Below, in pieces: positions 15,781 through 32,960 of a stretch of 64,000 nucleotides of DNA; the first letter of the stretch is position 1, and each line of letters begins with the position of its first letter. The DNA lies in assembly GCF_000307105.1 (NCBI RefSeq), contig NC_018645.1, positions 2,058,578 through 2,122,577 of the forward strand. Reading direction: 5' to 3'. The translations under genes were made by a program, and so were the position numbers. This DNA comes from Desulfobacula toluolica Tol2. GTDB lineage: Bacteria; Desulfobacterota; Desulfobacteria; Desulfobacterales; Desulfobacteraceae. The notes below the pieces were generated by a model. That model did no database searches and was not told the DNA's origin. It was given only the letters and a program-made list of their open reading frames with translations.

Positions 15781-15817
15781 TTTCCCGGCATTCTGCACTG
15801 TTCAGTCTCTATACTGT

Positions 15818-15829
15818 TGCATTTTTGCA
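15818..15829. promoter_or_regulatory. enhancer-type dyad TGCA-TTTT-TGCA
   Basis: Perfect TGCA-N4-TGCA dyad starting 107 bases before the -24 element at 15925. It is identical in form to the two sites at 17454 and 17478. Confidence 0.6.
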
Positions 15830-15923
15830 TTTTGTTATCATCTGAAAAAATTCAATCCATAATATAGTTTTTGTAATTATCTGTGATTATAAGTATTTTT
15901 TTTATTTGGAAATATAATAACCT

Positions 15924-15940
15924 CTGGCATGTTCTTTGCG
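15924..15940 (+). promoter_or_regulatory. sigma-54 promoter of the first NifX-family gene
   Basis: CTGGCATGTTCTTTGCG has GG at 15926-15927 and GC at 15938-15939 with ten bases between, a full consensus match. Confidence 0.8.
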
Positions 15941-16007
15941 ATAACTAAATTTGTAAGTTAGGTATAACTTAAATAATTAATTAAATAAAAAAGAAGGGTA
16001 TGTCTCA

Positions 16008-16040
16008 ATAACAGCCATGGCAGATCACTCTGCTACAAAG
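16008..16040. repeat. short palindromic repeat in leader
   Basis: Reverse complement of the copy at 41844-41878, with GCAGA-GTGA-TCTGC at its core. It would be transcribed in the leader of the NifX-family mRNA. Confidence 0.55.
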
Positions 16041-16101
16041 GATAATGAAAGATCTTTAATTTCAGTATGTTAAAGATTGTTTTGTGTAAGGAATATTAAT
16101 A

Positions 16102-16656: not shown

Positions 16657-16679
16657 AATTTATGGTAGAGTCTTAAAAT

Positions 16680-16691
16680 TGCATTGTTACA
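16680..16691. promoter_or_regulatory. probable enhancer dyad TGCA-TTGT-TACA
   Basis: Seven of eight bases match TGCA-N4-TGCA, inside a wider TTGCA...CACAA near-palindrome. It starts 122 bases before the -24 element at 16802, about one helical turn more than the other sites. Confidence 0.45.
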
Positions 16692-16801
16692 CAATTTTAC
16701 TTTTTTGCAGAGGTTGAGTTTTTTTTAAGGACATGGATTAAATTTTATATAACTGATTATAATTAAATGAAAAATTTATTTTTAACCGTTTGGGGCATAG
16801 G

Positions 16802-16817
16802 TGGCATGCTCTTTGCG
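16802..16817 (+). promoter_or_regulatory. sigma-54 promoter of the second NifX-family gene
   Basis: TGGCATGCTCTTTGCG has GG at 16803-16804 and GC at 16815-16816 with ten bases between. Its presence shows that the open frame upstream of 16942 is promoter and leader rather than coding. Confidence 0.8.
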
Positions 16818-16830
16818 ATACATCTTAATT

Positions 16831-16926
16831 TATATGAAAGTCTTGAAAAATCCAAACAGCGACTTTCAATCTTTGTTGTGGGCAAACCAAGGTGAAAGAC
16901 CAAGTCTGCCGAGGCAGTTATTCAAG
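16831..16926 (+). repeat. dispersed two-hairpin element, copy 1
   Basis: First hairpin GAAAGTC-N18-GACTTTC. The second is formed by GGGCAAACC and its partner near AAGTCTGCC, ending GGCAGTTATT. Related copies lie at 51144-51237 and, reversed, at 56455-56571, 59409-59512 and 62583-62695. This copy fills the leader between the sigma-54 promoter and the start codon at 16942. Confidence 0.75.
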
Positions 16927-16941
16927 AAAGGAAAATTTAGG

Positions 16942-17295
16942 ATGAAAGTTGCAATTACGGTTTGGGATGAGAAAATTTCCCCTGTTTTTGATTCTGCTCA
17001 CAAGCTTTTAATTGCGGACATCAAAAATGAAAAAATAAAAAAAATGTCCTATCAATCATTTAACCCTCAATTTGAGGCTCGCCTTACAGAGGATTTAAGT
17101 CATTTTGGTATTGAAGTCCTGATCTGTGGGGCAATTTCAGAAATTCATTCTACATTGATTGAGGCTTGCGCCATTAAGCTGATCCCCTTTATCGGCGGCA
17201 ATGTTAACCAGGTGCTTGAAGCTTATGCCAAAGGCAATCCTCTTGGTCCGTCTTTTTTAATGCCTGGATGCAGAGAGGACGATTCTATGGTATGA
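16942..17295 (+). CDS. NifX-family small protein
   Basis: A 117-residue single-domain protein of the dinitrogenase iron-molybdenum cofactor family: MKVAITVWDEKISPVFDSA, then ILICGAISE-like strand and HSTLIEACAIKLIPFIGG. The frame is open from 16801, but that part covers a sigma-54 promoter and a repeat element. The ATG at 16942, preceded by AAAGGA, is therefore the real start. The role is probably binding or carrying a metal cluster, or sensing. It is controlled like the preceding NifX-family gene, by its own promoter at 16802. Confidence 0.82.
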   Translation: MKVAITVWDEKISPVFDSAHKLLIADIKNEKIKKMSYQSFNPQFEARLTEDLSHFGIEVLICGAISEIHSTLIEACAIKLIPFIGGNVNQVLEAYAKGNPLGPSFLMPGCREDDSMV

Positions 17296-17635: not shown

Positions 17636-19282
17636 ATGAACCTGCCCGTAAACTGGAAGATACTTCTGATAGATGATGACGAAGATATCCGGGATGTTAT
17701 GGAAATCATCCTGAAAGATGCCGGATATTCAGTTATTTGTGCTCCTGACGGGTATACGGGTCTCATGCTCACCACAAGAGAAGAACCCCAGATCGTTATC
17801 ACGGACATTAAAATGCCCGGCTTGAACGGCCTTGAAGTCCTTGAAAAAATCAAAAAACTGAAACCGGAAACAGAAGTCATTATTACCACAGGGTTTGGCG
17901 ATATTGAAAAAGCCGTCAAAGCTCTGCAATATGATGCGTCTGATTTTATTTCAAAGCCCATTGATGATGACGCTTTGCACAAGGCATTGAAGCGGGCCAT
18001 GAAACGGTATGTTGATAAAAAACAATTGTCTGATTACACTACCCTGCTTGAAAATGAAAATTTAAAAACCAGCTCTGAGCTGGTAAAGAGTGTAAATTTT
18101 CAGAGCAGTCTCATTGAAAATTCAATGGACGGAATCCTTGGATGTAATGAAAACGATATCATTGTAACCTATAACCGGAGTATGGAAAAACTGCTGGGGT
18201 ATCCCAAAGCCCTGGTATTAAACAAAATGAAAGTGATGTCGTTTTTCAAACCCCACCGGTTTTTAAAACTGAAACAAGATTTGTCCGGCAGTGATTTTGG
18301 TGGTAAGAACAGGTTGTTTGTCTATGAAACCTCCATGCTTTCAGTGGAACAAAAAGATATCCCTGTCCAGGTTTCAGGGTTTATTCTATCCCAGGAAACG
18401 GTCCCAAACAGCATGGTGCTTTTCATTAGTGATTTAAGGGATCTTAGAACCCTGGAGCAGGAAGTAACGGATCAGGCAAAACTGCTTCACCGGGAAAAAA
18501 TGGTCTCTTTGGGACGGCTTGCTTCAAGCATGGTTCATGAAATCAACAATCCCTTGTCAGGAATCTTGAACTATATAAGGCTCATGATCCGTATCAGTAA
18601 AAAAGATTCTGACATAGGATCAGAGAGAGGCTTGAGCATGAAGTCTGGCCTTAAATCTGGCATGGAACCGGATCTGACACAAACCCGGTTGCAGGACAGG
18701 TTGCAGGAGCGGTTCAACAAGTTCAACTCCTATCTTGAAATCATAGAAGCCGAGACCCAGAGATGCTCGGATCTTGTGTCCGGCCTGTTGAAATTTTCAA
18801 GAAAAACAAAGCTGGAACAAACAAGTATTGATGTGGCTGAATTAATTCAACACAGTCTTTTATTGTGCAGACATAAGCTTGAGTTGAGCAATATCATTAT
18901 ACAAGAGAAATACGATACCGATGTCCCCCATATTTGCGGCGATTTTAATCAGCTTGAACAATGCATGATTAACCTGATCTTCAATGCCATTGACGCTATG
19001 GCAAATGGCGGGCGTCTGGAGATTAAAACAGGCTTTGATTCAAAAGAAAACCTTGTTTTTATTGCCATAAAAGACAATGGAAAGGGGATCTCAAAAGATG
19101 ATATAAATTTTATTTTTGAACCTTTTTTTACCACAAAAAATGAAGGCTACGGGGTTGGCTTGGGGCTGTCTTTAACTTATGGAATTATTGAAAAACACAA
19201 AGGCACAATCGTTGTGGAAAGCACTCTGGAAAAAGGCTCTGAATTTGTAATTAAACTTCCCCCAAAGCAATCGGGTGTTTAA
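17636..19282 (+). CDS. receiver-PAS-histidine kinase
   Basis: A 548-residue cytoplasmic hybrid protein. An N-terminal CheY-type receiver (about 8-122) has the acidic pair in IDDDED, phospho-acceptor Asp57 in TDIKMPG and a C-terminal Lys in SKP. A PAS domain follows (about 155-270). The HisKA domain has His301 in MVHEINNPLSG, and a HATPase domain follows (about 410-545) with NLIFNAIDAM, DNGKGIS and GLGLSLTYGI. No transmembrane segment or DNA-binding domain is present. It is the first gene of the operon starting at the sigma-54 promoter at 17588, 38 bases before an HdrA gene. It probably receives phosphate from one kinase and acts on another receiver, such as the one inside HdrA at 24484 (inference). 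Confidence 0.85.
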   Translation: MNLPVNWKILLIDDDEDIRDVMEIILKDAGYSVICAPDGYTGLMLTTREEPQIVITDIKMPGLNGLEVLEKIKKLKPETEVIITTGFGDIEKAVKALQYDASDFISKPIDDDALHKALKRAMKRYVDKKQLSDYTTLLENENLKTSSELVKSVNFQSSLIENSMDGILGCNENDIIVTYNRSMEKLLGYPKALVLNKMKVMSFFKPHRFLKLKQDLSGSDFGGKNRLFVYETSMLSVEQKDIPVQVSGFILSQETVPNSMVLFISDLRDLRTLEQEVTDQAKLLHREKMVSLGRLASSMVHEINNPLSGILNYIRLMIRISKKDSDIGSERGLSMKSGLKSGMEPDLTQTRLQDRLQERFNKFNSYLEIIEAETQRCSDLVSGLLKFSRKTKLEQTSIDVAELIQHSLLLCRHKLELSNIIIQEKYDTDVPHICGDFNQLEQCMINLIFNAIDAMANGGRLEIKTGFDSKENLVFIAIKDNGKGISKDDINFIFEPFFTTKNEGYGVGLGLSLTYGIIEKHKGTIVVESTLEKGSEFVIKLPPKQSGV

Positions 19283-19320
19283 AGAACCGTAAAAAAATAT
19301 CAACCATACTGGAGGTGTCC

Positions 19321-22300
19321 ATGTTCAAGAAGCTTGCGCCCGGCTCCAACAAATTTGCATCTGAAAAACCGGAATTCGGCAAGACAGCTTTGTTGAGATT
19401 TCAACCCTGCAGGATAGGGTTTTACATTTGCCATTGCGGGTTGAACATTGCAAGCAAAGTGAATGTTGAAGCTGTCAGGGAATATGTCGAGACCCTTGAG
19501 GGAATAATTGTGTCCAGGGATTATAAATTCATGTGTTCGGAACCTGGTCAGGCCATGATTGAAAAGGACATCCGGGAACTGGGTCTGAACCGGGTGGTGG
19601 TGGCATCTTGCTCTCCGAGACTTCATGGAAAAACATTCATGGAAGCCTGCAGGCGGGCAGGGCTTAATCCATACTATTTTCAAATGTCTTCGGTAAGAGA
19701 ACAGGTCTCCTGGGTGACCGAGGATGAATTGCTTGCCACCCAAAAAGCCATGCACCTGGTAACGGCTGCCATTCAACGGGTGAAATTTCATGATCATCTT
19801 GAAACAAAAACATCGGGCGTTAATCCAAATGTTGTAATCGTCGGTGGCGGCATTGCAGGTATGCAGGCGGCCATTGATGTCGGAAATTCAGGTCACAAGG
19901 CATATTTGATTGAAAAAGATACAACTATTGGCGGCCATATGCTTCAATTTGACAAAACCTTTCCAACTCTTGACTGTGCCGCCTGTATTGGGACTCCAAA
20001 AATGGTGGAAGTGGGGCAGAACCCGAATATTGAGCTGCTCAGTTTCAGTGAGGTCACCAACGTGTCTGGGTTTATCGGTAATTTTACAGTGGATGTCAGG
20101 CAAAAATCACGGTATATCAACCAAAATCTTTGTACTGGTTGCGGTGAATGTGCAAAGGTGTGCCCGGTTTTTATTCCCAATCCCTGGGACATGGGCATGG
20201 CTCAACGAAAAGCAATCGGCAGGGCCTTTCCCCAGGCCATACCCATCACCTATAATATTGAGAAAAAACAGACAGCCCCCTGCCGGTTAACCTGTCCTGC
20301 CGGGATAAATGTGCAGGGATATATTCAACTGGTTAAACAAAAAAAATATGATCAGGCGTTTCGTTTGATTATGGAAAAAGCCCCGTTTCCGGGCGTGCTG
20401 GGACGAGTATGCCCACATCCGTGCGAGGCTGAATGCCGGCGAAAATTTGTGGATGCACCCATAGCCATCAAAGAGCTGAAACGATTTGTAGCAGACAGGG
20501 CAAGCCTTGAAGATACATACATTCCTGAAATTTTGGACCGGGAAGAAAAAATTGCCGTGATCGGTGCCGGGCCTGCCGGGCTGACAGCTGCTTATTTTCT
20601 GCGCCTTAAAGGATACCGGGTAACTGTTTTTGAAAAACTGTCCGTTCCAGGAGGTATGCTCAAAACCGGTATCCCGGACTACAGGTTGCCGTCAGACGTG
20701 CTTGACGGAGAAATAAACACCATTCTCGCCCACGGTATCAACCTTGTTACAGATACTGCGTTTGGAAAGGATATTACTTTTGAAAGCCTGGAAAAAGAGG
20801 GGTTTGACGCACTGTTTTTAAGTTCAGGTGCCCATGAATCTCTCACACTTGGTCTGGAAGGGGAAGCTTCCGCAAAAGGCGTTATGGATGCCATCAGTTT
20901 TCTGCGGGATGTGAACTTGGGATGCAAGACAGACTGCGGCAAAAAAGTGATGATTGTTGGAGGCGGTAACGTGGCCATAGATGCTGCAAGGTGTGCAAAA
21001 CGAACCGGCAACTGTGAAGTCACCATCATATACCGGCGGACAAGGCAGGAGATGCCGGCCTATGAAGAAGAAATTACAGGAGCTCTTGAGGAGAATATTG
21101 AGATTTTAACCCTGACAACACCTGCCAAAATTATAACCAGGGACGGCAGGGTTGCCGGTATTGAGTGCATTAAAAATAAACTGGGTGAAAAAGATGATTC
21201 AGGAAGACAAAGACCGGTAAATATCTTGGGGTCTGAATTTGTGATTGACTGCGACACCATCATCCCGGCCATTGGGCAGAAAACAGACCTGTCATGGGCA
21301 AACTCAATGCCCGGTCTTGAGATCACTTCCTTCAATCGTATAAAGACCCATCCCGACACTTTGCAGACATCTCTTGAAAATGTGTTTGCAGGTGGGGATA
21401 TGGTTACGGGTCCTGCCACTGTCATTGAAGCCATTGCCCAGGGACGAAAGGCAGCCACAGGTATTGATAATTATATAAACAAGATTCAAACGCATAAGGA
21501 TGACAATGATATTTACAATGGCAAAGAGACAGATCATGGTAATGATGCAAATCAAGCCGTGAAACTTGAAAATTATTCTGAAATTCCTTCAAACACAATG
21601 GTTGAAGAGAGGGTCTGTGTTCACTCTATTGATCCTGAACAAAGGGTTCTTTCCTATGAGGAAGTTGAGGCCACTTTGACGGAAGAGCAGGCCGTAAAGG
21701 AAGCGCAGCGGTGTTTGAACTGTGCCACCTGCTGTGAATGCATGGAATGTATGTCTGTTTGTGAGGCAAAGGCCATAGACCATTTTATGAAGGAAAAGAC
21801 CGTGCAGTTGCAGGCAGGCAGCATTATTCTTGCCACAGGTTATGATACCCTGGAGCCAACCCCTATGAAACAATTCGGCTATGGCAGGTTTGCCAATGTG
21901 TTTTCAGCCCTTGAATTTGAGCGCTTAAGCAATGCCACCGGTCCTACCGGAGGTAAAATTTTGATGCGCGACAAAAACAATGAATTTGTAAAACCGCCTG
22001 AAAGCGTGGCAATTGTTCATTGTATAGGCAGCCGGGATGTGAATTTCCACGAATACTGCTCAAGGGTTTGCTGCATGTATGCCTTAAAATATACGCACCT
22101 GATCAAGGAAAAAGTAGGTCATGATACAAAGGTCTATGATTTTTATATTGATATGCGCTGTTTTGGTGAGGGATATGAAGAGTTTTACAAGCGGTGCCAG
22201 GAAGAGGGAACAATTTTTATCCGGGGCAAAGTGGCACAGATCACGGATAAACCCGACAAGCCGTCTGAACAGGGAAAGCTGATTGCCATTGCGGAAGATA

Positions 22301-22821
22301 CCCTTTTGGGGGAACTTGTCAGAGTGCCCGTGGACATGATCATTCTTTGCACAGCCATCCAGGCAAGGCAAGATGCCGGGGATGTGGGAAGGGTGTTTGG
22401 CGTTAACCAGGGGGCGGATGGATTTTTTCTCGAAGAACATCCAAAGCTGGCTCCTTTGAATACGGCAACAGAAGGCGTGTTTCTTTGCGGATGCTGTCAA
22501 AAGCCCATGGACATACCCGATACCGTGTCCCAGGCATCGGGCGCTGCGGCAAAAGCATTGTCTCTTGCTGCAAAAGGCCGGGTTGATATTGCTCCTACAA
22601 TTTCATTTATTGATCCTGATGTTTGTGTAGGGTGTAAAAGCTGTATCAGCCTGTGTCCTTATTCAGCCATTGAATTTGACGACCGAAGATTGGTGTCTGT
22701 TGTCAATGAAGCGGTATGTAAAGGATGCGGCAGTTGTTCCGGGGTTTGTCCCAGCGGTGCGGCACAAAGCCGCCATTTTACCAAAAAACAGATTTTCGCG
22801 GAAATCAGCGGAATTTTTTAA
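19321..22821 (+). CDS. HdrA-like flavoprotein with inserted GltD/NfnB-type oxidoreductase module
   Basis: About 1166 residues. The HdrA part has an N-terminal cysteine region (YICHCGLNI), a FAD fold (VVIVGGGIAGMQAA, near 172), TLDCAACIGTPKM and a 4Fe-4S motif CTGCGECAKVCPV (near 270). A second complete NADPH-type module follows, from CRLTCPAGINVQGY (near 322) through IAVIGAGPAGLTAAYF (near 410) and VMIVGGGNVAIDAAR (near 541), as in GltD/NfnB. HdrA then resumes with CLNCATCCECMECMSVC (near 798) and ends in two 4Fe-4S motifs (about 1101-1150). It is likely an electron-bifurcating or confurcating hub with an added NAD(P)H site. Start chosen at ATG 19321 with GGAGG; an upstream GTG lies inside that site. 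Confidence 0.88.
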   Translation: MFKKLAPGSNKFASEKPEFGKTALLRFQPCRIGFYICHCGLNIASKVNVEAVREYVETLEGIIVSRDYKFMCSEPGQAMIEKDIRELGLNRVVVASCSPRLHGKTFMEACRRAGLNPYYFQMSSVREQVSWVTEDELLATQKAMHLVTAAIQRVKFHDHLETKTSGVNPNVVIVGGGIAGMQAAIDVGNSGHKAYLIEKDTTIGGHMLQFDKTFPTLDCAACIGTPKMVEVGQNPNIELLSFSEVTNVSGFIGNFTVDVRQKSRYINQNLCTGCGECAKVCPVFIPNPWDMGMAQRKAIGRAFPQAIPITYNIEKKQTAPCRLTCPAGINVQGYIQLVKQKKYDQAFRLIMEKAPFPGVLGRVCPHPCEAECRRKFVDAPIAIKELKRFVADRASLEDTYIPEILDREEKIAVIGAGPAGLTAAYFLRLKGYRVTVFEKLSVPGGMLKTGIPDYRLPSDVLDGEINTILAHGINLVTDTAFGKDITFESLEKEGFDALFLSSGAHESLTLGLEGEASAKGVMDAISFLRDVNLGCKTDCGKKVMIVGGGNVAIDAARCAKRTGNCEVTIIYRRTRQEMPAYEEEITGALEENIEILTLTTPAKIITRDGRVAGIECIKNKLGEKDDSGRQRPVNILGSEFVIDCDTIIPAIGQKTDLSWANSMPGLEITSFNRIKTHPDTLQTSLENVFAGGDMVTGPATVIEAIAQGRKAATGIDNYINKIQTHKDDNDIYNGKETDHGNDANQAVKLENYSEIPSNTMVEERVCVHSIDPEQRVLSYEEVEATLTEEQAVKEAQRCLNCATCCECMECMSVCEAKAIDHFMKEKTVQLQAGSIILATGYDTLEPTPMKQFGYGRFANVFSALEFERLSNATGPTGGKILMRDKNNEFVKPPESVAIVHCIGSRDVNFHEYCSRVCCMYALKYTHLIKEKVGHDTKVYDFYIDMRCFGEGYEEFYKRCQEEGTIFIRGKVAQITDKPDKPSEQGKLIAIAEDTLLGELVRVPVDMIILCTAIQARQDAGDVGRVFGVNQGADGFFLEEHPKLAPLNTATEGVFLCGCCQKPMDIPDTVSQASGAAAKALSLAAKGRVDIAPTISFIDPDVCVGCKSCISLCPYSAIEFDDRRLVSVVNEAVCKGCGSCSGVCPSGAAQSRHFTKKQIFAEISGIF

Positions 22822-22853
22822 AGATATCAACCCACTGGCAAAAGGAGAATTAA

Positions 22854-23276
22854 ATGGAAAATTTTCAACCGGTTATCATCGCTTTTGTCTGCAACTGGTG
22901 TACCTATACGGCTGCGGATCTTGCAGGGACATCCAGATTGTCCTATCCTGATAATATTCGCCTGATCCGGGTCATGTGTACGGGAATGGTTGATCCCCAA
23001 TATGTTATCAAGGCTTTTCTTGAAGGAGCTGACGGGGTTTTAATCAGTGGGTGCCATCCGGGCGACTGCCACTATATCAACGGCAATTACAAGGCAAGAC
23101 GCCGGATCAAGCTGTTGAAAGAAATTCTTGTGCGATTTGGAATTGAAAGGGACCGGCTGAGGCTGACATGGATAGGGGCAAGCGACGGCATTGAATTTTC
23201 TCAAGTCATGACGAAGCTCAATGATCAAATAATTGAAATGGGACCTTCTCAGACAAGGTTGAGCAAGGTCATATGA
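22854..23276 (+). CDS. mvhD: MvhD/HdrD-delta type [2Fe-2S] electron-transfer subunit
   Basis: A 140-residue protein of the methyl-viologen-reducing hydrogenase delta family, with FVCNWCTYTAAD, MCTGMVDP and GCHPGDCHYINGN providing the conserved cysteines. In methanogens and acetogens, MvhD links an electron-donating module (hydrogenase or formate dehydrogenase) to HdrA. Here it follows an HdrA gene and overlaps the FdhB-like gene by four bases, so it probably bridges these two. The ribosome site is AAAGGAG. Confidence 0.9.
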   Translation: MENFQPVIIAFVCNWCTYTAADLAGTSRLSYPDNIRLIRVMCTGMVDPQYVIKAFLEGADGVLISGCHPGDCHYINGNYKARRRIKLLKEILVRFGIERDRLRLTWIGASDGIEFSQVMTKLNDQIIEMGPSQTRLSKVI

Positions 23277-24454
23277 TGGAAAGGAAAAAAACTGCCATGA
23301 TATGCAAAATAGAGCGTGAGGATAACAGCCTGATCAAAGGATTGCAGTTGTTTTTCAAACGGCTTCTGGAAACCAGCAATATTGATGCTCTTTTTCTGCC
23401 GGTTCGCTTAGAAGGGTCAAGTTCCATTATGCCGTCTCTTGTGACCAGCCCGGATCAATTGGAGAATGCCATACCTTTAAGCCCTGCTTTTGCGCTTAAT
23501 TCGGCAAGAATGGTATCTCGTCTTTCCTATAAGGCGTCCGGAAGAAAAACTGCCGTATTGCTACGGCCTTGTGAAATCCGGGCTTTTATTGAACTGGTAA
23601 AGCTCAAACAAGGCTCCCGGCAGGAGTTGATTCTTATGGGCATGGATTGCCCCAAAGCATTGACATCGTCTGACTGTGCAGCGTACATGAAAGGATCGCC
23701 TTTGACCGATGATGCCTATGTTGAGGCGGTGTTTTCAGGCAACAATGAAACCTCAGACAAAAATGAAACTATAGAAGGTTTTACATTCAGCAGTGCCTGT
23801 AACACCTGTGAGAATCCGTTTCCCATCAACAGTGACTTGAATATTCTTCTTCACGGTATTGATCTTTCAACGGGGGTGGTGGTGGAGTCAGACAGTGAAA
23901 CGGGGCAAAAGATTCTGGAAAGCCTTGAAATGCCGGAGGTTGTACTGCCGGAGAAACGAGATCAGATCATGGCTCAGATAAAACAGGCCCGTTCAACAGC
24001 CAATCAGGCAATGATTTGCGACATCACCGATAAGACAGACAGTATCGTAAAACTCAATGCTTTTTTTGACCGGTGCATCAACTGCTATAACTGCCGGAAC
24101 ATGTGCCCGGTCTGCTATTGCAAAGAGTGCGTCTTTAATACGGATGTGTTTTATCATCAGCCGGTTCAATATCACCAGTGGGCTGAAAAAAAGGGGAGTA
24201 TCAAAATGCCCACGGATACGGTTTTTTATCATCTCACCCGGATGGCCCATATGAGTCATGCCTGTGTGGGATGCGGTCAGTGTTCAAATGCATGCCCCAG
24301 CGATATCAATGTTTTTGAGCTGTTCAAGAGCGTGGCTCAACAAACCCAGGCAGCCTTTGAATATTCTCCCGGAACAGACGAAAATCAATTGCCTCCCTTA
24401 TCGGTTTTTAATGAACAAGAGTTTGAGAGCATAGTTGGTGTGGCAAAAGAATAA
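23273..24454 (+). CDS. FdhB/FrhB-like iron-sulfur flavoprotein subunit
   Basis: A 393-residue protein similar to the beta subunits of F420-reducing hydrogenase and formate dehydrogenase. The N-terminal and middle part (about 1-250) includes TAVLLRPCEIRAFIEL, the typical block before the flavin region. The C-terminus has CINCYNCRNMCPVCYC (about 264-279) and CVGCGQCSNACP (about 328-339), enough for two 4Fe-4S clusters. It should pass electrons from a low-potential donor such as ferredoxin, NADH or formate dehydrogenase to MvhD/HdrA. No formate dehydrogenase catalytic gene is in the operon, so the donor is open. The start overlaps mvhD by four bases. Confidence 0.82.
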   Translation: MMERKKTAMICKIEREDNSLIKGLQLFFKRLLETSNIDALFLPVRLEGSSSIMPSLVTSPDQLENAIPLSPAFALNSARMVSRLSYKASGRKTAVLLRPCEIRAFIELVKLKQGSRQELILMGMDCPKALTSSDCAAYMKGSPLTDDAYVEAVFSGNNETSDKNETIEGFTFSSACNTCENPFPINSDLNILLHGIDLSTGVVVESDSETGQKILESLEMPEVVLPEKRDQIMAQIKQARSTANQAMICDITDKTDSIVKLNAFFDRCINCYNCRNMCPVCYCKECVFNTDVFYHQPVQYHQWAEKKGSIKMPTDTVFYHLTRMAHMSHACVGCGQCSNACPSDINVFELFKSVAQQTQAAFEYSPGTDENQLPPLSVFNEQEFESIVGVAKE

Positions 24455-24483
24455 TCGGATATAATTTATTTTTTGGAGGTCAA

Positions 24484-27400
24484 ATGAACAAGGCAATTGG
24501 CAGAACATTGGTTGCCGGCGCAGGGTTAAGCGGTATCAGATCTGCACTGGATCTGGCTGAAACAGGCTTCAAGGTTCTTCTCATTGACAAAGCAGACCAC
24601 ATCGGCGGCCTGTTGTGTCAGCTTGATTACCAGTTTCCCACATCCACATGCGGATATTGCCGGATGCTGCCCATGTTTGACAGGGACCGGTCTTCCCAGC
24701 ATTGTTTGAGAAAAGGGCTTTTCCATGAAAATATTGAGATCCTTTTGTCCACGGAACTGATATCTGTTCAAGGGGAACCAGGGGATTTAAACGTTACCCT
24801 CAAACAAAACCCCTCTTTGATTGATTCGTCTTTATGCACGGGGTGCGGTGAATGCGAACGGGTTTGCCCGGTGTTGGTAAATGATCCGTTCAACGAGGGA
24901 TTTACAAAACGAAAGGCTGTCTATCTGCCGACACCCCAGTCCTTTTCCAATGCTTACACCATTGATTATACGGCATGTACAAGGTGTGGCGAGTGCGAGA
25001 AAATTTGTTCTGCAGGGGCGATAAAATTTACAGAACAGGATAGGGAAAAATTTAAGATCCTGGTGGTGGATGATGAAAAAATTGTCCGGGATTCCATGAA
25101 AGAGTGGCTCAAGGAAGAGGGATTTTTCGTCAAAACAGCGGATTCAGGACAAAAAGCCCTTGACCTGATGGACGAACAGCTGTTTAACATGCTGCTTACC
25201 GATATCAAAATGCCTGGAATGGACGGGGTTGAATTGCTGGCCAGGGCAAAACAGAAAAATGAAGATCTGTGCGTTATTATGATGACGGCGTATGCCGCGG
25301 TTGATTCAGCCGTGGATGCCATGAAACAGGGGGCCCTTGATTATCTTACCAAACCCTTTGATCCGGATATATTGATTTCCATGGTGCTGAAAGTCTATCA
25401 TGAGTTTGAAATTGCCGAAGGACGTGTTGAAAGGGTGGATGCGTTTATTCTTGCCGGGGGAACACAGTTTTTCAGGCCTGAACTGGGAAAAAATCCTTAT
25501 GGTTATGGTGTTTTGCCGGGGGTGTTAACCGGTATGGAGTTTGAACGGCTCATCAGTGGAACCGGGCCTGAATTTGTTTCCGGCAGCAACAGGTTGATTC
25601 ATCCAAAAACCGGCAAGCCTGTTCGAAAAATCGCCTGGTTCCAATGCGTTGGTTCCAGGGATGTCCAGGCTGGGGCACAGTTTTGTTCCAGTGTCTGCTG
25701 CATGATTTCCATAAAAGAGGCTATTCTTGCCAGAGAAAAATTTGGCCCGGATATTGAAACCACGATTTTTTATATGGATATGAGAACAATCGGCAAATCC
25801 TTTGATGAGTATAAGCGAACTGCTCAACAAGACAACCAGGTCAGGTTTGTCAGGGCAAGAATTCATTCTCTTTCTCAAAACCCCACCTTTTTTAAAAATT
25901 CTGTTGTTTCTCAAGATTCCGGTAAAATGGACGGCAATCTTGTGACCAGGTACGCAGACATTCAGGGAGTCATCCATGAAGAAGATTTTGATCTTGTGGT
26001 GCTGGCAACCGGACAAAGACCTGCCAGACAGATGACCGATTTTGCCATTCAAAACAACATTGAAACAAACACATGGGGATTTGTTGAAACCCTGCCTTTT
26101 TCAATGGTTGAGACATCAAGGCCGGGAATTTTATCCGGCGGATCTCTTTGCGGGTTAAAGGATATCGGCGAATCAGTCACCTGTGCATCGGCAGCAGCCT
26201 TTGGGGCATGCAAAATCATGCACGGTGCAGGGCGGCGGATAACACATGAAATACAGGCAGATGAACCAGCGATTCTGGCAAGGGAAAATCCAAGAATTTT
26301 AACGGTGCTGTGTTCTTGCAATACTGCATTTTCTCAAAAGCTTGACATTGAAACTCTGAAAGCCAGCCTGGAGCAAATTCCTGAAATGGATGCCGTTGAA
26401 ATAATGGATAAGCTGTGCATGGATGAAGGAAAGGCAGCCTTGGCGGACAAGATCGAAAAAATTCATTCTAACAGGCTTGTTCTGGGAGCATGCCTTCCTT
26501 GTATTCAAAAACAAAAGATCAGGGAAATTGGTAAAATGTCAAAACTTCACCCAAGCCTTGTTGAAACTCTGGATATGGTTCCTGTTTTAAATCGGAATTT
26601 AAATTCTCAAGTTCGCAAGACAACACAATGTCTTGAAAGAGAGTTGAAAGTTTTGATATCAAGGGCCAGGTTTAAAAATCCCGTGCCGGTTGAGGAAGTT
26701 GAATCCAATCAAAATGCCCTGGTGATTGGCGGTGGTATTGCAGGTATCACAGCGGCATTGTCAATTGCAGATTGCGGGTATCATGTCGACCTGGTTGAAA
26801 AAAACGATACCCTTGGCGGGAATCTGTTGTGGATGGATAAGACTGTTGACGGTCTGGATATTCAGGCGTATCTGGCTGAAAAAGTCAAACAGCTTGAATC
26901 CCATGATCATGTTACGATTCATAAACAAACAAATATTGAAGGTTCTGGTGTTAACGGTTTTGCTGTTAACGATTATAGAGGGAGGGCCGGAGAATTTTCC
27001 ACTGTTTTAAACAAAGACGATGACCGCAGTGAAACGATTTTTCACGGGGTGACCATTCTTGCCACAGGGGGAAACCAGGCCCCACTTGATTTGATGTCTA
27101 ACGACCCGTCAAAAAATGTGTTGACCCAGAAAGAATTTGAAATCGCTGTTCACGACCGGGAAATTGATCCTGAAAATCTGGACAGTGTTGTGATGATACA
27201 GTGTTCCGGAACAAGGGATGAAAAGCAAAATTACTGCTCCAGGGTCTGTTGTATCAGGGCCTTGAAAAATGCGCTTTTTCTCAAAGAAAAGAATCCTGAT
27301 GTCCAGGTCTTTATTTTTTACAGAGATATGATGAGTTATGGATTTTTTGAAGAATATTATACCCGGGCAAAAAATATTGGGGTGGTTTTTTTTCAGTATG

Positions 27401-27984
27401 ATCCTGAAAACAAGCCTGTGACACAAACAAATAAAAGCGGGTGTCTTGTCAAAGCCCGTGATATCCTGCTGGATATGCCGGTTGAAATCCAGGCTGATTG
27501 CGTGATTCATGCCACTGGTATTTTGCCGGATCTTCCAAAGGTACTGGCAGATCAATATGGCGCAACAAGAGATGAATTTTATTTTTTCAAGGAAGCCGAT
27601 CCAAAATTCAGGCCTGTGGACAGCATGAATTACAGGGTTTTTTCCTGTGGCTTGTCATTAAAACCTTGTACCATTGAAGAAGCAATTTCTTCAGCCCAGG
27701 CCTGTGCAGTAAGGGCCATGCGAATTCTCTCTCATGAGCGTCTGGTATCCGGGAAAACAGTTGCTACAACCCGTGCGGCAACCTGCAGCATGTGTGAAAT
27801 GTGTGTGGATACCTGTCCCTATGGTGCAAGGTTTGTTGATGTTTTGGAGGAAAAAATAGGTATTGATCCTGGTGCCTGCCAGGGATGTGGTGTATGCGCG
27901 GCAGTTTGTCCAAGCGGTTCGGCAGTCCTGGAGGGGTTTGACGCCAGGCAGATGCTGGATGTCATTGATATGGCATTGTTGTGA
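24484..27984 (+). CDS. double HdrA-like flavoprotein with embedded CheY-type receiver domain
   Basis: A 1166-residue protein. The first half has a FAD fold at the very N-terminus (LVAGAGLSGIRSAL) and two 4Fe-4S motifs, CTGCGECERVCPV and CTRCGECEKIC (about 118-173). A complete receiver follows (about 189-305), with Asp196/Asp197, phospho-acceptor Asp240 in TDIKMPG, Thr268 and Lys290. HdrA then resumes at RVDAFILAGG with FQCVGSRD and FCSSVCCM. The second half repeats an HdrA core (VIGGGIAGITAAL near 746, IQCSGTRDE, YCSRVCC) and ends with CSMCEMCVDTCP and CQGCGVCAAVCP. It lacks the N-terminal HdrA domain. The receiver sits in the loop just before the VGAII-like strand, so the enzyme fold need not be broken. 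Phosphorylation may gate electron flow (inference). Confidence 0.88.
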   Translation: MNKAIGRTLVAGAGLSGIRSALDLAETGFKVLLIDKADHIGGLLCQLDYQFPTSTCGYCRMLPMFDRDRSSQHCLRKGLFHENIEILLSTELISVQGEPGDLNVTLKQNPSLIDSSLCTGCGECERVCPVLVNDPFNEGFTKRKAVYLPTPQSFSNAYTIDYTACTRCGECEKICSAGAIKFTEQDREKFKILVVDDEKIVRDSMKEWLKEEGFFVKTADSGQKALDLMDEQLFNMLLTDIKMPGMDGVELLARAKQKNEDLCVIMMTAYAAVDSAVDAMKQGALDYLTKPFDPDILISMVLKVYHEFEIAEGRVERVDAFILAGGTQFFRPELGKNPYGYGVLPGVLTGMEFERLISGTGPEFVSGSNRLIHPKTGKPVRKIAWFQCVGSRDVQAGAQFCSSVCCMISIKEAILAREKFGPDIETTIFYMDMRTIGKSFDEYKRTAQQDNQVRFVRARIHSLSQNPTFFKNSVVSQDSGKMDGNLVTRYADIQGVIHEEDFDLVVLATGQRPARQMTDFAIQNNIETNTWGFVETLPFSMVETSRPGILSGGSLCGLKDIGESVTCASAAAFGACKIMHGAGRRITHEIQADEPAILARENPRILTVLCSCNTAFSQKLDIETLKASLEQIPEMDAVEIMDKLCMDEGKAALADKIEKIHSNRLVLGACLPCIQKQKIREIGKMSKLHPSLVETLDMVPVLNRNLNSQVRKTTQCLERELKVLISRARFKNPVPVEEVESNQNALVIGGGIAGITAALSIADCGYHVDLVEKNDTLGGNLLWMDKTVDGLDIQAYLAEKVKQLESHDHVTIHKQTNIEGSGVNGFAVNDYRGRAGEFSTVLNKDDDRSETIFHGVTILATGGNQAPLDLMSNDPSKNVLTQKEFEIAVHDREIDPENLDSVVMIQCSGTRDEKQNYCSRVCCIRALKNALFLKEKNPDVQVFIFYRDMMSYGFFEEYYTRAKNIGVVFFQYDPENKPVTQTNKSGCLVKARDILLDMPVEIQADCVIHATGILPDLPKVLADQYGATRDEFYFFKEADPKFRPVDSMNYRVFSCGLSLKPCTIEEAISSAQACAVRAMRILSHERLVSGKTVATTRAATCSMCEMCVDTCPYGARFVDVLEEKIGIDPGACQGCGVCAAVCPSGSAVLEGFDARQMLDVIDMALL

Positions 27985-28097
27985 TATTATCGTAATATCC
28001 TGGGCAATTGTTAAGTTGCCGGATGAAAATTTCAGTGAACTGCCGGATAAAATATCAGGTAATGCAGGAATTAAACACTAAAAAAAGGGGAAAGGGT

Positions 28098-28643
28098 ATG
28101 GGCCAGGAAAATAATGAACTGTTGTTGACACATATCGGGCCGATCAAGGAGATGATCCAGACATGCATTCAATGCGGAACCTGTACTGCGTCCTGCCCGA
28201 ACACAAAATTTATGGACATGACTCCCAGGCATATGTGGCGTTTGCTGCTGACGGATCATGCTGACGTAATTTTTTCAAGCAAATCTTTTATCATGTGTTC
28301 ATCCTGCTATTATTGCACCTTGAGATGCCCAAGGGGGCTTGAGTTGACTGCTGCCATGAGCCTGTTGAAACAGGCGGCGTTAAAATTAAAATTAAAGCGG
28401 TTCCGGCGCTCGTCTCTTTTTTATGAAGCTTTTTTAGACAGTGTTAAAAAACATGGCAGGGTCAAGGAGATGGAGTTTATGACCCACTATTTTATGTCAA
28501 TGAAAAACCCCCTACTTCCGTTGGGCTATGCGGCTTTAGGGACAAGGCTGCTGGCTAAGGGTAAGATCCGGCCTGACTTTTCTTTTGGAGGCAAGGGAAA
28601 ATTAACGGCATTGTTTGAAAAAACAGCACAACTGGAGGGATGA
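28098..28643 (+). CDS. hdrC: heterodisulfide reductase subunit C
   Basis: About 181 residues from ATG 28098 (ribosome site AAAGGG); the frame is open further upstream, but that part is unlike the family. Two 4Fe-4S motifs are visible, CIQCGTCTASCP (near residue 20) and CSSCYYCTLRCP (near 68), the standard HdrC pair. A basic helix region follows. HdrC relays electrons from HdrA to HdrB. Its stop is one base before the hdrB start. Confidence 0.9.
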   Translation: MGQENNELLLTHIGPIKEMIQTCIQCGTCTASCPNTKFMDMTPRHMWRLLLTDHADVIFSSKSFIMCSSCYYCTLRCPRGLELTAAMSLLKQAALKLKLKRFRRSSLFYEAFLDSVKKHGRVKEMEFMTHYFMSMKNPLLPLGYAALGTRLLAKGKIRPDFSFGGKGKLTALFEKTAQLEG

Positions 28644-28644
28644 G

Positions 28645-29517
28645 ATGAAATACTTATATTATCCTGGCTGTTCATTGGAAGGCACCTCTGTTGAATATCA
28701 TATTTCCACTAAAGCATTAATGCAGGCTATGGACGCACAATTGGAGGAAATTGAGGATTGGACCTGCTGCGGGGCCACGGCAGCCGAGTCCGTAAGCCAG
28801 CTGTTGTCCTATGTGCTTCCGGCAAGGAATCTGGCCCTTGCTGAAAAAATGAACAGATCTAAACAGATTCTGGTGCCCTGCAGCGCCTGCTATCTGAATT
28901 TGAAAAAAACCGAAGAACAGATAAAAAAAGACAAGAATTTGCTGGGGCAAATTAATATGGTGCTTGCCGAAGAAGATCTTGTTTTAAATGGAGATGTAAA
29001 CGTCCGGCACCTGCTGGATGTCCTGGCAAATGATGTGGATATCAAAAAAATCAAGCTGGCAGCTCAACAAAAAATGTCGGGTCTGAGTATTGCGCCTTAT
29101 TACGGATGCCAGTGTTTGCGGCCATTTAATGTTTTTGATGATCCAGAAGATCCCCATTCCATGGATGCATTGATACGGGCAACCGGGGCGCAAATTTTTG
29201 AATGGGACATGGGTGGTCAATGTTGCGGCGCTTCCAATACCAGTACAAAGCCTGAAGCAGGATTGGCACTGGTGGGAAAAATTTTGCAGGCTGCAAAAGG
29301 GGCGGATGCGATATTAACCGTCTGCCCCATGTGCCAGATGAACCTTGAAGGCTATCAAAAAAAAATATCTCAACAACAAGGGAAAAATCTTGAAATTCCA
29401 GTTTTTTTCCTTCCGCAGTTTTTAGGGCTTGCCATGGGAAAAAGAAAAGAGGATACCCGGCTGGATTTAAATCTTTCCCATACAGGAGCTTTTGCAAAAA
29501 AAAGCTGTATGATATGA
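28645..29517 (+). CDS. hdrB: heterodisulfide reductase subunit B
   Basis: About 290 residues with two CCG domains: YPGCSLEG...DWTCCGA...PCSACYLNL and YGCQCLRP...GGQCCGAS...CPMCQMNL. These bind the non-cubane 4Fe-4S clusters that reduce a disulfide or analogous acceptor. The start at ATG 28645 has GGAGG seven bases upstream. The gene follows hdrC directly and overlaps the next kinase gene (ATGA). The acceptor in non-methanogens is unsettled; a thiol/disulfide couple or a DsrC-like partner is possible. Confidence 0.9.
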   Translation: MKYLYYPGCSLEGTSVEYHISTKALMQAMDAQLEEIEDWTCCGATAAESVSQLLSYVLPARNLALAEKMNRSKQILVPCSACYLNLKKTEEQIKKDKNLLGQINMVLAEEDLVLNGDVNVRHLLDVLANDVDIKKIKLAAQQKMSGLSIAPYYGCQCLRPFNVFDDPEDPHSMDALIRATGAQIFEWDMGGQCCGASNTSTKPEAGLALVGKILQAAKGADAILTVCPMCQMNLEGYQKKISQQQGKNLEIPVFFLPQFLGLAMGKRKEDTRLDLNLSHTGAFAKKSCMI

Positions 29518-31823
29518 GTAATTTTACCCAATATTTAAGGCACAGCCTTGTTTCAAAGCTGATCATTATTGTCGGACTGACCGTTATTCTTTCCATATCT
29601 GCCTGGGCATACTTTAATATTAATAATATCCGGACCCAGATTATAAAAAATCTGATAGCCAGTACGGACAGGCTTGCCAATTCCATTAAACTCGGCACCC
29701 ATTACGCTATGATGCTCAATTCAAGGGATGACATTACCCAGATTATTAATAATATCGCCACCCAGCCGGAAATAGAAAATATAAGGATATACAATAAAGA
29801 GGGTAAGATAAAATTTACCAACCAGGAAGACGAAATTGATAAAATGGTTGATATCAAGGAAGTGGCCTGTGATATCTGCCATAAACAGGACCCGCCGCCG
29901 GATCAGATCGGATTGCAGCAAAGGACGCGATTTTTTCGATCCGAAAAAGGCCACAGGCTTTTGGGCATTGTCCAGCCTATCTGCAATGAGCCAGGCTGCG
30001 CTACAGAGTGCCATTTTCATCCTGAGCATCAACAGATACTGGGCTCCCTTGATGTGGTCGTTTCTCTTGAACAGCAAGACCGCCAGATGTCGAAAATTGA
30101 AAAAGGGATCATAAGCCTCGCACTTTCAACAATTTTAATTATATCCGTGATTCTCTTTTTTTCCATTTTGCAATTTGTAAAAAAGCCGATTATCAAGCTT
30201 ATTGAGGGGACAAGGAAGATTGCTGAAGGTAAATATGATGAAGATATTGATATAGGAAATGATTATGAAATCGGGCTTCTTGGCACAGCCATAAAAAAAA
30301 TGGGTGCCCAGATAGGCCTTAACCAGGCTGAACTTAAAAAACAGAAAAACGAATACCAGTCACTTTTTGACACGGCACCGTGCATGATAACGGTCCAGGA
30401 TAAAAATTACCGGTTGTTAAGGTGGAATAAGGTTTTCAAAGACAGGTTTGATCCAAAGCCTGGTTCCTGCTGTTATTATGCTTATAAAGGTCTGGAAGAA
30501 AAATGCCCTGATTGTCCGGTTGAAAAAACTTTTCTGGATGGAAAATCACATTATGGTGAAGCAGAAGGCATGGCTAAGGACGGTGAAAAAAATCATTGGA
30601 TATTTATTACATCCCCTGTAACTGATACTGAAGGAAACGTTGTTGCCGCAATGGAGATGAGTATTGATATCACCCCAAGACGACGTCTGGAAAAAGAGCT
30701 CAAGAGATCTGAGGAAAAGTATCATGCAATATTTAACAATATTTCAAATCCCGTTTTTGTCGTCGATATCCAGACATTTGCCATCCTTGACTGTAATATT
30801 AAAGCAGTTGAAGTTTACGGGTATTCCAGAAGCATATTGTTAAACAAATTGTTTTCCGAGTTTTTTGTGGAATCTCAGGCAGCCGAATTGGTTAAAAAAA
30901 TGAGGTCGGGCCGGGAGATAAACAAGGTGAAACACCTGGTTCAAAATAACCGGTTCATCTATGTTGACATGTGGGTTTCGCCTTCTAACTATTCGGGCCA
31001 AAAAGTGCTGCTTGTCACCATTAATGATATTACTCAGCGTCTTGAAACCGAACAGCACCTGATGCATGCAAGCAAAATGGCCACCCTGGGTGAAATGTCC
31101 ACCGGGATTGCCCATGAATTGAATCAGCCATTGTCGGTGATTAAATCTTCCAGCAGTTTTTGTATGAAAAAAATGCGGAAAAATGAAATAATTGAAAAAG
31201 AGATTTTTAACAAGCTGATTTCAAAAATTGACAGCAATGTGGACCGGGCTGAAAAAATTATTCACCATATGCGGCAGTTTGCAAGAAAAACTGAAATCAA
31301 ACTTGTCAGAACAAACATAAACAAGGTGCTTCAAAGAACATTTGAAATGTTTAACCAGCAACTTAAAATTCACGGTATTGATGTTATCTGGGATAAAAAC
31401 GATGCATTGCCGGAAATACAGGCTAATCCCGACAGACTTGAACAGGTTTTTATTAATCTTGTGATGAATGCAAAAGATGCCATAGAAGAAAAATGGGAAA
31501 AACAGGGCACAAGGCCGGGGGATACCGACAAAATTACCATTATAACCAAAATACGGGATAACAGGGTTGTCATTGAAATACGTGACACGGGTATCGGAAT
31601 TCAAAAAGAGGCGGCTGACAAGCTGTTCGAGCCTTTTTTCACCACCAAGGAAGTGGGAAAGGGAACGGGTTTGGGGTTGTCCATAAGTTATGGTATTATC
31701 AAAGAGTGTTCCGGCACAATCCAGGCAGAGCCGGGGAAGAACAAAGGTGCGGTTTTTATTATCTCTTTTCCCGTGCCGGACGGAGATGGAGATGATATCG
31801 TGTATGAAAGCCATAAAAGTTGA
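29514..31823 (+). CDS. membrane sensor histidine kinase with CXXCH-containing sensor domain
   Basis: A 769-residue kinase. Transmembrane helices lie near 14-34 and 200-222 and flank an extracytoplasmic sensor. This has CDICH (about 118-122, a haem-c type CXXCH) and later CNEPGCATECHFHPEHQ. HAMP follows (about 222-275), then two PAS domains (about 280-395 and 400-510); the first contains CCYYAYKGLEEKCPDC. HisKA has His534 in GIAHELNQPLSV, and a HATPase domain ends the protein. The start overlaps hdrB by four bases, so it is made with the Hdr complex. Sensing of a periplasmic redox state is the simple reading; haem binding is not proven. Confidence 0.85.
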   Translation: MSNFTQYLRHSLVSKLIIIVGLTVILSISAWAYFNINNIRTQIIKNLIASTDRLANSIKLGTHYAMMLNSRDDITQIINNIATQPEIENIRIYNKEGKIKFTNQEDEIDKMVDIKEVACDICHKQDPPPDQIGLQQRTRFFRSEKGHRLLGIVQPICNEPGCATECHFHPEHQQILGSLDVVVSLEQQDRQMSKIEKGIISLALSTILIISVILFFSILQFVKKPIIKLIEGTRKIAEGKYDEDIDIGNDYEIGLLGTAIKKMGAQIGLNQAELKKQKNEYQSLFDTAPCMITVQDKNYRLLRWNKVFKDRFDPKPGSCCYYAYKGLEEKCPDCPVEKTFLDGKSHYGEAEGMAKDGEKNHWIFITSPVTDTEGNVVAAMEMSIDITPRRRLEKELKRSEEKYHAIFNNISNPVFVVDIQTFAILDCNIKAVEVYGYSRSILLNKLFSEFFVESQAAELVKKMRSGREINKVKHLVQNNRFIYVDMWVSPSNYSGQKVLLVTINDITQRLETEQHLMHASKMATLGEMSTGIAHELNQPLSVIKSSSSFCMKKMRKNEIIEKEIFNKLISKIDSNVDRAEKIIHHMRQFARKTEIKLVRTNINKVLQRTFEMFNQQLKIHGIDVIWDKNDALPEIQANPDRLEQVFINLVMNAKDAIEEKWEKQGTRPGDTDKITIITKIRDNRVVIEIRDTGIGIQKEAADKLFEPFFTTKEVGKGTGLGLSISYGIIKECSGTIQAEPGKNKGAVFIISFPVPDGDGDDIVYESHKS

Positions 31824-31829
31824 GGAAAT

Positions 31830-32960
31830 ATGATTGATAAAAGTCAGGTGTCCATATTGGTTGTTGATGATGAAGAAGATATCAGGGACGTTCTTGAAAT
31901 TGCATTAATGGATATCGGATATACGGTATTGCTTGCAGAAAATGGCGAAAAGGCATTTGAGATATTCAAGTCCAAAAGACCGCAGATAGTTATTACAGAT
32001 ATTAAAATGCCGGTTATGGATGGTATTGAATTGTTAAGACAGATTAAAAGGGAAAATCCTGCAACCGAAGTGTTGATGATCACCGGGCACGGCGATATGG
32101 ATTTGACCATTCGCAGCCTCAAGCACGAGGCCATGGATTTTATCACCAAGCCTGTAAATGTGGATATTCTTGAAATTGCCGTTGAAAAAGCTGTTGAAAA
32201 AATTGTCTCAGGTCAAAAGCTTTTGGAATACACTCAAAAACTTGAACTTCTCATCCTGGAAAAATCAAAGCTGGCCGATCATTTGTCTGGCCTGGGGCTT
32301 ATGATGGGAACCATCTCTCACAATATCAAGGGATTGTTAACCAATCTTGACGGTGGAATTTATGTGGCTCGGTCCGGCCTGAAAAACAACAACAATAAAA
32401 CAATTGAAGAAGGAATGGACTTGCTGGGGCAGTCAGTTGACCGGATAAAAAAGATGATCATGGATGTTTTATTGTATTCCAAGGAAAGAAAGCTTAACAG
32501 AAGCCTCATTGAGACCAAAGGGTTTGTCCGTCAGATTAAAAAAATGATGGAATTAAAACTGAAAGGAACAAATATAATCTTTAATTGCAATGATACTCAT
32601 TGCCCTGAAACTATTTTCGTGGATGAGGAATTTATCATGGCCGCCCTGGTCAATATCCTGGATAATGCCATTGATGCCTGCCGGTCTGATATGCAGAAAA
32701 AAGATCATGCCATTGAGTTTGAAATATTAAAAAAAAAAGATCAATTGGTGATTCAAATTCATGATAATGGCTGTGGTATGGACAGTCAAACAAAAGAAAA
32801 AATATTTAACCTGTTTTTTTCCTCAAAAAGTACAAAAGGAACGGGATTTGGACTGTATATTTCAAATTCTATTATCAAACAGCATAGCGGCTCCATTCAT
32901 GTGACGTCCATAAAGGAAAAAGAGACCCTGTTTAAAATTATCCTGCCCGATGAAATTTAA
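31830..32960 (+). CDS. receiver-histidine kinase, last gene of the Hdr operon
   Basis: A 376-residue cytoplasmic protein. It has a receiver (about 8-122; VVDDEED and Asp57 in TDIKMPV, Lys in TKP), a coiled linker, an atypical dimerisation helix with His164 in ISHNIKGLLTN and a HATPase domain (about 265-375; LDNAIDAC, DNGCGMD, GTGFGLYIS). Six bases separate it from the membrane kinase, which probably phosphorylates its receiver. Like the first kinase of the operon, it has no DNA-binding domain. The chain membrane kinase, receiver-kinase, HdrA receiver is plausible but not shown by sequence. Confidence 0.83.
   Translation: MIDKSQVSILVVDDEEDIRDVLEIALMDIGYTVLLAENGEKAFEIFKSKRPQIVITDIKMPVMDGIELLRQIKRENPATEVLMITGHGDMDLTIRSLKHEAMDFITKPVNVDILEIAVEKAVEKIVSGQKLLEYTQKLELLILEKSKLADHLSGLGLMMGTISHNIKGLLTNLDGGIYVARSGLKNNNNKTIEEGMDLLGQSVDRIKKMIMDVLLYSKERKLNRSLIETKGFVRQIKKMMELKLKGTNIIFNCNDTHCPETIFVDEEFIMAALVNILDNAIDACRSDMQKKDHAIEFEILKKKDQLVIQIHDNGCGMDSQTKEKIFNLFFSSKSTKGTGFGLYISNSIIKQHSGSIHVTSIKEKETLFKIILPDEI

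Follow-up and report, generated by a model that had tools for sequence, protein, structure and literature searches.

In the Hdr complexes of methanogens, low-potential electrons leave through the ferredoxin inserted in HdrA (PMC9012536). This ferredoxin is also the docking site of the polyferredoxin MvhB, and an arm that contains the N- and C-terminal domains of HdrA appears to gate bifurcation by its movement (PMC12350162). Fused double HdrAs are also known, namely HdrA3/HdrA4 of ANME archaea and the HdrA of the Moorella MetFV-HdrABC-MvhD complex (PMC9012536), and a locus of the order hdrL-mvhD-fdhB-hdrA4-hdrCB (locus VIII) was described in D. autotrophicum HRM2 in 2009 (PMC2702500). Here we describe the same set of hdr genes within a 64,000-nt stretch of DNA from Desulfobacula toluolica Tol2 (GCF_000307105.1, NC_018645.1, positions 2,058,578-2,122,577, forward strand). 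All coordinates given below are positions within this 64-kb stretch, referred to as the window, and labels such as L140 denote the loci of relatives. The tandem HdrA encoded in the window (HdrA-REC) harbors a full CheY-like receiver, as the original prediction made from the sequence had claimed, and it is encoded in one unit with three histidine kinases. The parts of this protein, with the evidence for each, are the following (aa, amino acids).

24484-27984, + strand: HdrA-REC, a tandem HdrA with an internal receiver, 1166 aa (open reading frame, Pfam, paralogue alignment, 5odc alignment, model)
24484-24813, + strand: first thioredoxin-reductase-like FAD domain, N-terminal part, aa 1-110 (5odc alignment)
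24814-25044, + strand: inserted ferredoxin with two [4Fe-4S] motifs, aa 111-187, equivalent to HdrA 237-314 (Fer4 matches, 5odc alignment)
25051-25392, + strand: CheY/NtrC-like receiver, aa 190-303, with D196, D197, D240, T268, Y287 and K290 (Pfam, model, conservation)
25201-25203, + strand: codon of Asp240, the predicted phospho-acceptor (Asp in 97/98 orthologues)
25438-26238, + strand: remainder of the first FAD domain, aa 319-585, with conserved cysteines 388, 401, 405 and 406 (5odc alignment, conservation)
26284-26703, + strand: HdrA N-terminal-type domain at the head of the second half, aa 601-740 (alignment of aa 601-787 to 5odc 2-188)
26704-27753, + strand: second FAD domain, aa 741-1090, without an inserted ferredoxin and without a receiver (Pyr_redox_2, structural match)
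27766-27933, + strand: C-terminal 2x[4Fe-4S] ferredoxin, aa 1095-1150 (domain search)

The open reading frame is preceded by a good ribosome-binding site (TGGAGGTCAAATG). A phmmer alignment with the HdrA of Methanothermococcus thermolithotrophicus (5odc) matched aa 16-185 of HdrA-REC to 154-313 and aa 318-516 to 321-500; in the second half, aa 601-787 corresponded to 2-188 and aa 926-1159 to 407-644. These alignments indicate that HdrA-REC consists of two HdrA modules in one chain and, since they extend along both sides of the receiver, that no more than a few residues, where the chain leaves the inserted ferredoxin, have given way to the latter. An N-terminal domain is missing from the first module, in which C59 takes the position of HdrA Cys197 and the ferredoxin and then the receiver are inserted; the second module possesses this domain as well as the C-terminal ferredoxin. 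Alignment with HdrA paralogues of the same genome covers aa 2-187 and approximately 317-1163, with nothing between. The family features of HdrA (a thioredoxin-reductase-like FAD domain, the HdrA iron-sulfur cysteines, inserted and C-terminal ferredoxins) are all present, and the cysteines of the inserted ferredoxin are kept in most of the 98 distinct orthologues used for all of the conservation counts of this protein (Cys118/121/124/128 in 92, Cys165/168 in 94 and Cys175 in 98). HdrA-REC scored below the NCBIfam cut-offs for the single-module HdrA and HdrA2 equivalogs (581 vs 1100, and 454-459 vs 1300-1400), and is accordingly a relative of double architecture, distinct from the methanogen equivalog.

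An AlphaFold2 model of HdrA-REC, built with 48 sequences, had a mean pLDDT of 83.4 and a pTM of 0.84. Its first half superimposed on HdrA 8rwn (Z 25.2, 2.2 Å over 423 residues) despite the insert. The position originally proposed for the receiver, cleanly between the ferredoxin and the continuation of the flavin fold, was therefore borne out by the 5odc and paralogue alignments as well as by the model.

The domain search and the structure prediction both revealed that the receiver is complete. The match of Pfam Response_reg (PF00072) to aa 192-301 takes in profile positions 1-110 of 111 (E 1.3e-30), and the residues named in the original prediction (D196/D197, D240, T268, K290) were correctly placed; the switch aromatic Y287 is likewise present. 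In the model, aa 191-311 adopt a clean, canonical (beta-alpha)5 fold, which matches 3crn with a Z of 23.0 (1.3 Å over 125 residues), and the long alpha5 helix (294-311) is predicted to be directly continuous with the flavin-fold strand that follows.

The residues required for phosphorylation, all of which had been said to be kept, are indeed so: D196, D197, T268, Y287 and K290 occur in 98/98 orthologues and D240 in 97/98, which rules out a degenerate receiver in the homologues, with one exception (L140, see below). Few parts of HdrA-REC are as well conserved as the receiver: its median pairwise identity is 0.68, whereas the inserted ferredoxin reaches 0.61 and most of the flavin domains 0.53-0.55. 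We compared its helices with those of 123 other receivers of the same loci. Conservation reached 0.94 (vs 0.53) in alpha4, whose face is the usual interaction surface of receivers, and 0.80 (vs 0.53) in alpha1, the usual kinase-binding helix; alpha5, the link to HdrA, is less conserved (0.55 vs 0.35). In receivers encoded as separate proteins in the same operons, residues of the phospho-site have often been lost (DNDAK, DDNSS, AEDSK and others), and the retention of the site in HdrA-REC while these decay points to selection on the receiver. At the level of sequence, this conservation argues for a working phosphoswitch and not for a spacer.

The search for related proteins, in which aa 137-378 served as the query, covered 389 genomes of the class. 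Matches below the E-value limit were obtained in 151 of these; 143 were judged to be the HdrA-receiver protein and eight match through the receiver alone or in part. Named records of HdrA-REC come from Desulfobacula, Desulfotignum, Desulfospira joergensenii, Desulfonema magnum, endosymbionts of Olavius and the Syntrophobacteraceae, and beyond the order the protein was detected in three among approximately 290 phylum-level genomes. In a tree calculated without the receiver columns, the receiver-bearing HdrAs formed one group with a receiver-less pair (genus g9) nested inside, a topology best read as one gain of the receiver and one loss in g9.

The gene for HdrA-REC is the fifth of nine (positions 17636-32960) that form the unit HK17-HdrL-MvhD-FdhB-like-HdrA(REC)-HdrC-HdrB-HK29-HK31. 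The remaining members of this unit, and two motifs in one of the kinases, are as follows.

17636-19282, + strand: HK17, receiver-PAS-HisKA-HATPase (domain search; catalytic His in 35/35)
19315-22821, + strand: HdrL-type HdrA with a GltD/NfnB-like NAD(P)H module interrupting its inserted ferredoxin (domain and family searches)
22854-23276, + strand: MvhD/FlpD-type iron-sulfur subunit (Pfam FlpD, E 1.6e-53)
23273-24454, + strand: FdhB-like iron-sulfur protein (Fer4-type Pfam matches only; named by synteny with D. autotrophicum locus VIII)
28008-28643, + strand: HdrC-like protein (family search)
28615-29517, + strand: HdrB-like protein with two CCG domains (domain and family searches)
29514-31823, + strand: HK29, periplasmic sensor-HAMP-PAS-PAS-HisKA-HATPase (domain search, conservation)
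29868-29882, + strand: CDICH, a c-haem-type motif in the HK29 sensor (Cys/Cys/His in 54/54 orthologues with the region; 22/22)
29997-30023, + strand: CATECHFHP (C-x3/4-CHxHP), a second c-haem-type motif in the HK29 sensor (Cys, His and HxHP invariant, 22/22)
31830-32960, + strand: HK31, receiver-kinase core (domain search, conservation)

From HK17 to HK31 the intergenic gaps measure 32, 32, -4, 29, 23, -29, -4 and 6 bases, the start of HK29 overlapping the end of hdrB by 4 bases; scans of the window for promoters and terminators gave counts near or moderately above background. The order HdrL-MvhD-FdhB-like-HdrA(REC)-HdrC-HdrB, together with kinases, is retained across families. HdrB, HdrC and MvhD are encoded together, as in an HdrABC/MvhD complex, and from its family membership the HdrA-REC complex is predicted to carry out flavin-based electron bifurcation.

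The three histidine kinases proposed for this operon (17636, 29514 and 31830) were confirmed, their linkage proved to be conserved across an order, and their catalytic motifs are conserved. The sensor of HK29 was modeled as a single Cache domain, with WalK-type Cache domains as the best structural matches; a sequence search of solved structures with this sensor returned nothing meaningful. All 22 of the 22 HK29 sensors compared match Pfam Mcp40H-20_sensor weakly (best E 6e-7), the protein of the window falling below the Pfam cut-off. Chemoreceptor sensors of this family bind c-type haem, and the invariant motifs suggest that the HK29 sensor may do the same.

The reading that we favor, with moderate confidence, is that a kinase of the unit phosphorylates the receiver within HdrA and that phosphorylation alters the electron flow of Hdr through gating or partner docking. 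HdrA-REC would then be a response regulator with an enzyme as its output; the phosphorylation, the signal, the acting kinase and the effect on electron transfer are all putative. HK29, with its single-Cache sensor and two c-haem motifs, would most likely be the kinase, aided by the receiver-kinases HK31 and HK17; it would sense the periplasmic redox state or the electron load of cytochromes and phosphorylate Asp240. Phosphorylation would shift the alpha4 face, which lies where the inserted ferredoxin (HdrA's low-potential exit arm) is rooted and which alpha5 joins directly to the flavin fold, and this shift would change the electron flow of Hdr. The outcome could be either (i) gating of the transfer to the exit ferredoxin, or (ii) control of the docking of a partner (an external ferredoxin, the HdrL/MvhD arm, or HdrCB), since a receiver lying between the exit ferredoxin and the flavin fold appears well placed for both. 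A more specific version, in which bifurcation/confurcation is gated post-translationally by a phosphoswitch in the flavin domain and a haem-based sensor of periplasmic electron load permits fast, transcription-free re-routing of electrons, is put forward tentatively, as a possibility that we would not yet call probable.

The link between kinases and receiver was assessed by natural comparisons. A kinase gene lay within 6 kb of the cluster in 26/31 receiver-bearing clusters, compared with 2/8 HdrA paralogues of the same genome and 2/8 receiver-less relatives of the operon; these counts ignore shared ancestry, which weakens them as support, and some are too low, because with a simple gene caller antisense frames mask genes in the G+C-rich loci L065, L094 and L098. 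Three of the five remaining clusters do have HK29, slightly further off or masked by such a gene-calling artefact. At the level of genomes, HK29 is present in 118/143 with HdrA-REC vs 65/246 without it.

The receiver module was also found in other settings. In receiver-less operons of a second, related subtype, HK29 is accompanied by a tandem UspA protein and by a phospho-competent receiver encoded on its own, and in other operons a receiver whose sequence is close to that of the HdrA receiver lies between two UspA domains; by its domain composition, this UspA-receiver-UspA arrangement is a second, presumably non-transcriptional, output for the same receiver module. The occurrence of one signalling unit joined to HdrA, joined to UspA or free provides an argument of the Rosetta-stone type for HdrA as one target of these kinases. 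A receiver-domain tree of the UspA and HdrA receivers was too poorly resolved and was not used. The UspA-receiver-UspA proteins (approximately 435-475 aa), often encoded in the same operon, were observed at L062:14024-15448, L080, L082, L083, L085, L089, L187, L193 and L194.

Besides the shared ancestry of the clusters, several observations weigh against phospho-control of HdrA by these kinases. The lone orthologue lacking D240 (L140:6266-8201) has Gly at the phospho-acceptor position and an altered beta4-alpha4 loop, and could be a decayed receiver or an error of a metagenome-assembled genome. The kinase is not exclusive to HdrA, as indicated by the 65 genomes that have HK29 without HdrA-REC and by the arrangement in genus g9, which probably includes D. 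autotrophicum and where the HK29-HK31 pair is encoded at a distance from the hdr cluster, its neighbours being a Tmc-like complex and a stand-alone receiver; an exclusive pairing of HK29 with HdrA is therefore not supported. Nor is a strict co-loss of kinase and receiver, since one clade lost the receiver and these receiver-less g9 genomes yet keep HK29 elsewhere. The g9 arrangement suggests that the kinase may report respiratory electron flow in general and not that of Hdr alone. Moreover, HdrA-REC proteins of the Desulfotignum type (L070, L071, L099 and L191; approximately 936-959 aa), four distinct sequences in which the inserted 2x[4Fe-4S] ferredoxin is lost, keep a complete receiver; gating of the ferredoxin can thus not be the whole role, and docking or assembly must be considered too. 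Finally, HdlA5BC of D. toluolica, possibly the same complex, was reported as undetected in proteomes (PMC5109826).

At L213, L214 and L215, HK29-HK31 and a stand-alone receiver adjoin a membrane redox complex composed of a membrane cytochrome, an HdrD-like protein and a multihaem protein, which we take to be Tmc-like from its sequence features.

The loss of the ferredoxin with retention of the receiver is also the point from which the first alternative draws support. The receiver could be a phospho-controlled docking platform that recruits the Hdr complex to the membrane kinases, or controls the assembly of HdrL/MvhD/HdrCB, with no gating of its own. The conserved alpha4 face and the overlap of the hdrB and HK29 genes are consistent with this, but the present data do not separate docking from gating, and we regard docking as the sole role as rather unlikely.

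It is similarly unlikely, in our judgment, that the signal runs the other way and the Hdr complex is the sensor, the redox state or occupancy of HdrA altering the conformation or dephosphorylation of the receiver while the true output of the kinases is another regulator, for example a transcriptional one. HdrA-REC would then act as a redox-responsive phosphate sink or as an allosteric partner of the kinases, a role that has the same low probability. The N-terminal receivers of HK17 and HK31 suggest a relay, other phospho-competent receivers accompany the same kinases in relatives, and the direct junction of alpha5 with the flavin fold offers a coupling route in either direction. Against this, HK29 already has a dedicated periplasmic sensor domain, and the domain search found no DNA-binding response regulator or transcription output domain encoded within 17636-32960. 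The claim that the operon encodes no such output therefore held for the unit itself, but a PAS-sigma54-HTH activator is encoded just outside:

14419-15780, + strand: PAS-sigma54-HTH activator without a receiver, outside the unit (domain search)

This activator lies upstream of the unit and adjoins the cluster in close relatives too.

That the receiver is a passive structural insert, which no longer signals and whose linkage to kinases is historical, we consider very unlikely. Complexes without a receiver do exist (those of the paralogues and of receiver-less orthologues) and one clade lost it cleanly, but across an order in which other receivers of the operons decay, the phospho-site, the switch Tyr and both interaction faces show no or hardly any variation. 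The suspicion of two genes fused by a sequencing error, for which we found nothing in favor, can be dismissed, since independent assemblies from many families, those of named isolates (e.g. Desulfospira joergensenii DSM 10085 and Desulfonema magnum 4be13) among them, share the same HdrA/receiver junctions, which so result neither from chance nor from a sequencing fusion.

Several other features of these loci were noted. The NAD(P)H module of HdrL (19315-22821) is inserted within the same ferredoxin region that borders the receiver in HdrA-REC, and the two insertions at one loop mark it as a hot spot for domain insertion. Single-domain receivers, often with degenerate phospho-sites, are encoded 5' of HdrL in many operons (L062:3691-4131, L091, L093, L094, L097, L112, L115 and L120). 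Directly upstream of the unit, 13010-17295 encodes a cation diffusion facilitator with a C-terminal NifX-like part, the PAS-sigma54 activator and two NifX-like proteins; this gene set recurs in close relatives, and except for the domain-searched activator its members were named by eye.

Transcription and motility are generally regarded as the main outputs of two-component systems. In HdrA-REC the receiver sits in a core redox enzyme, beside the low-potential electron arm of HdrA, and is retained across an order of sediment bacteria; cells may thus switch the enzyme itself by phosphorylation, and not only its gene. If phosphorylation gates HdrA, periplasmic redox sensing would be linked directly to the partitioning of electrons in the cytoplasm, and a single residue, D240, would be a handle on the control of Hdr-type bifurcation in sulfate reducers with many Hdr paralogues. 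That one residue makes the idea directly testable.

Comparison with known systems places HdrA-REC as follows. It shares the FAD domain, both ferredoxins and the HdrB/HdrC/MvhD partners with the HdrA of HdrABC-MvhADG (5odc, 7bkb-7bke, 8rvu-8rwn), from which it differs in the fusion of two halves in one chain and in the receiver that follows the inserted ferredoxin. Like the fused double HdrAs (PMC9012536), it combines a complementary N-terminal domain and Cys197 in one chain, but its halves are in the reverse order and a receiver is added. As regards D. autotrophicum, HdrL was described in PMC2702500, and one figure there marks genes for response regulators, CheY-like proteins and kinases at hdr loci; the main text, to which this check extends, says nothing of a receiver in HdrA4. 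L067, which is probably from D. autotrophicum, has this gene set and does carry the receiver, the kinases being encoded elsewhere in that genome. The HK29 sensor resembles the c-haem sensors of class 40H chemoreceptors in its weak Pfam match and invariant CxxCH, and differs in being attached to a histidine kinase.

In the papers searched (supplements outside the search), we found neither HdrA as the host of a receiver, nor this position within the flavin domain, nor the haem-motif kinase of the same unit. With a receiver covalently joined to an enzyme, HdrA-REC has the architecture of a response regulator with enzymatic output. The anatomy, the intact site and the linkage agree with phospho-control acting directly on an Hdr complex, but calling this a new type of two-component output went too far: metabolic enzymes that bear receivers are documented (PMC5847659), among them REC-thioredoxin reductase (Mycobacterium-like; Heimdallarchaeota), whose enzyme part shares its fold with the flavin domain of HdrA, and the kind of output is therefore known. 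Those proteins likewise combine a receiver with an enzyme domain; in HdrA-REC, the receiver lies inside the first flavin domain, in a predicted bifurcating multi-subunit complex whose unit also encodes the kinases. Receiver-bearing metabolic enzymes being already known, what appears to be new is HdrA as the host and the internal position of the receiver.

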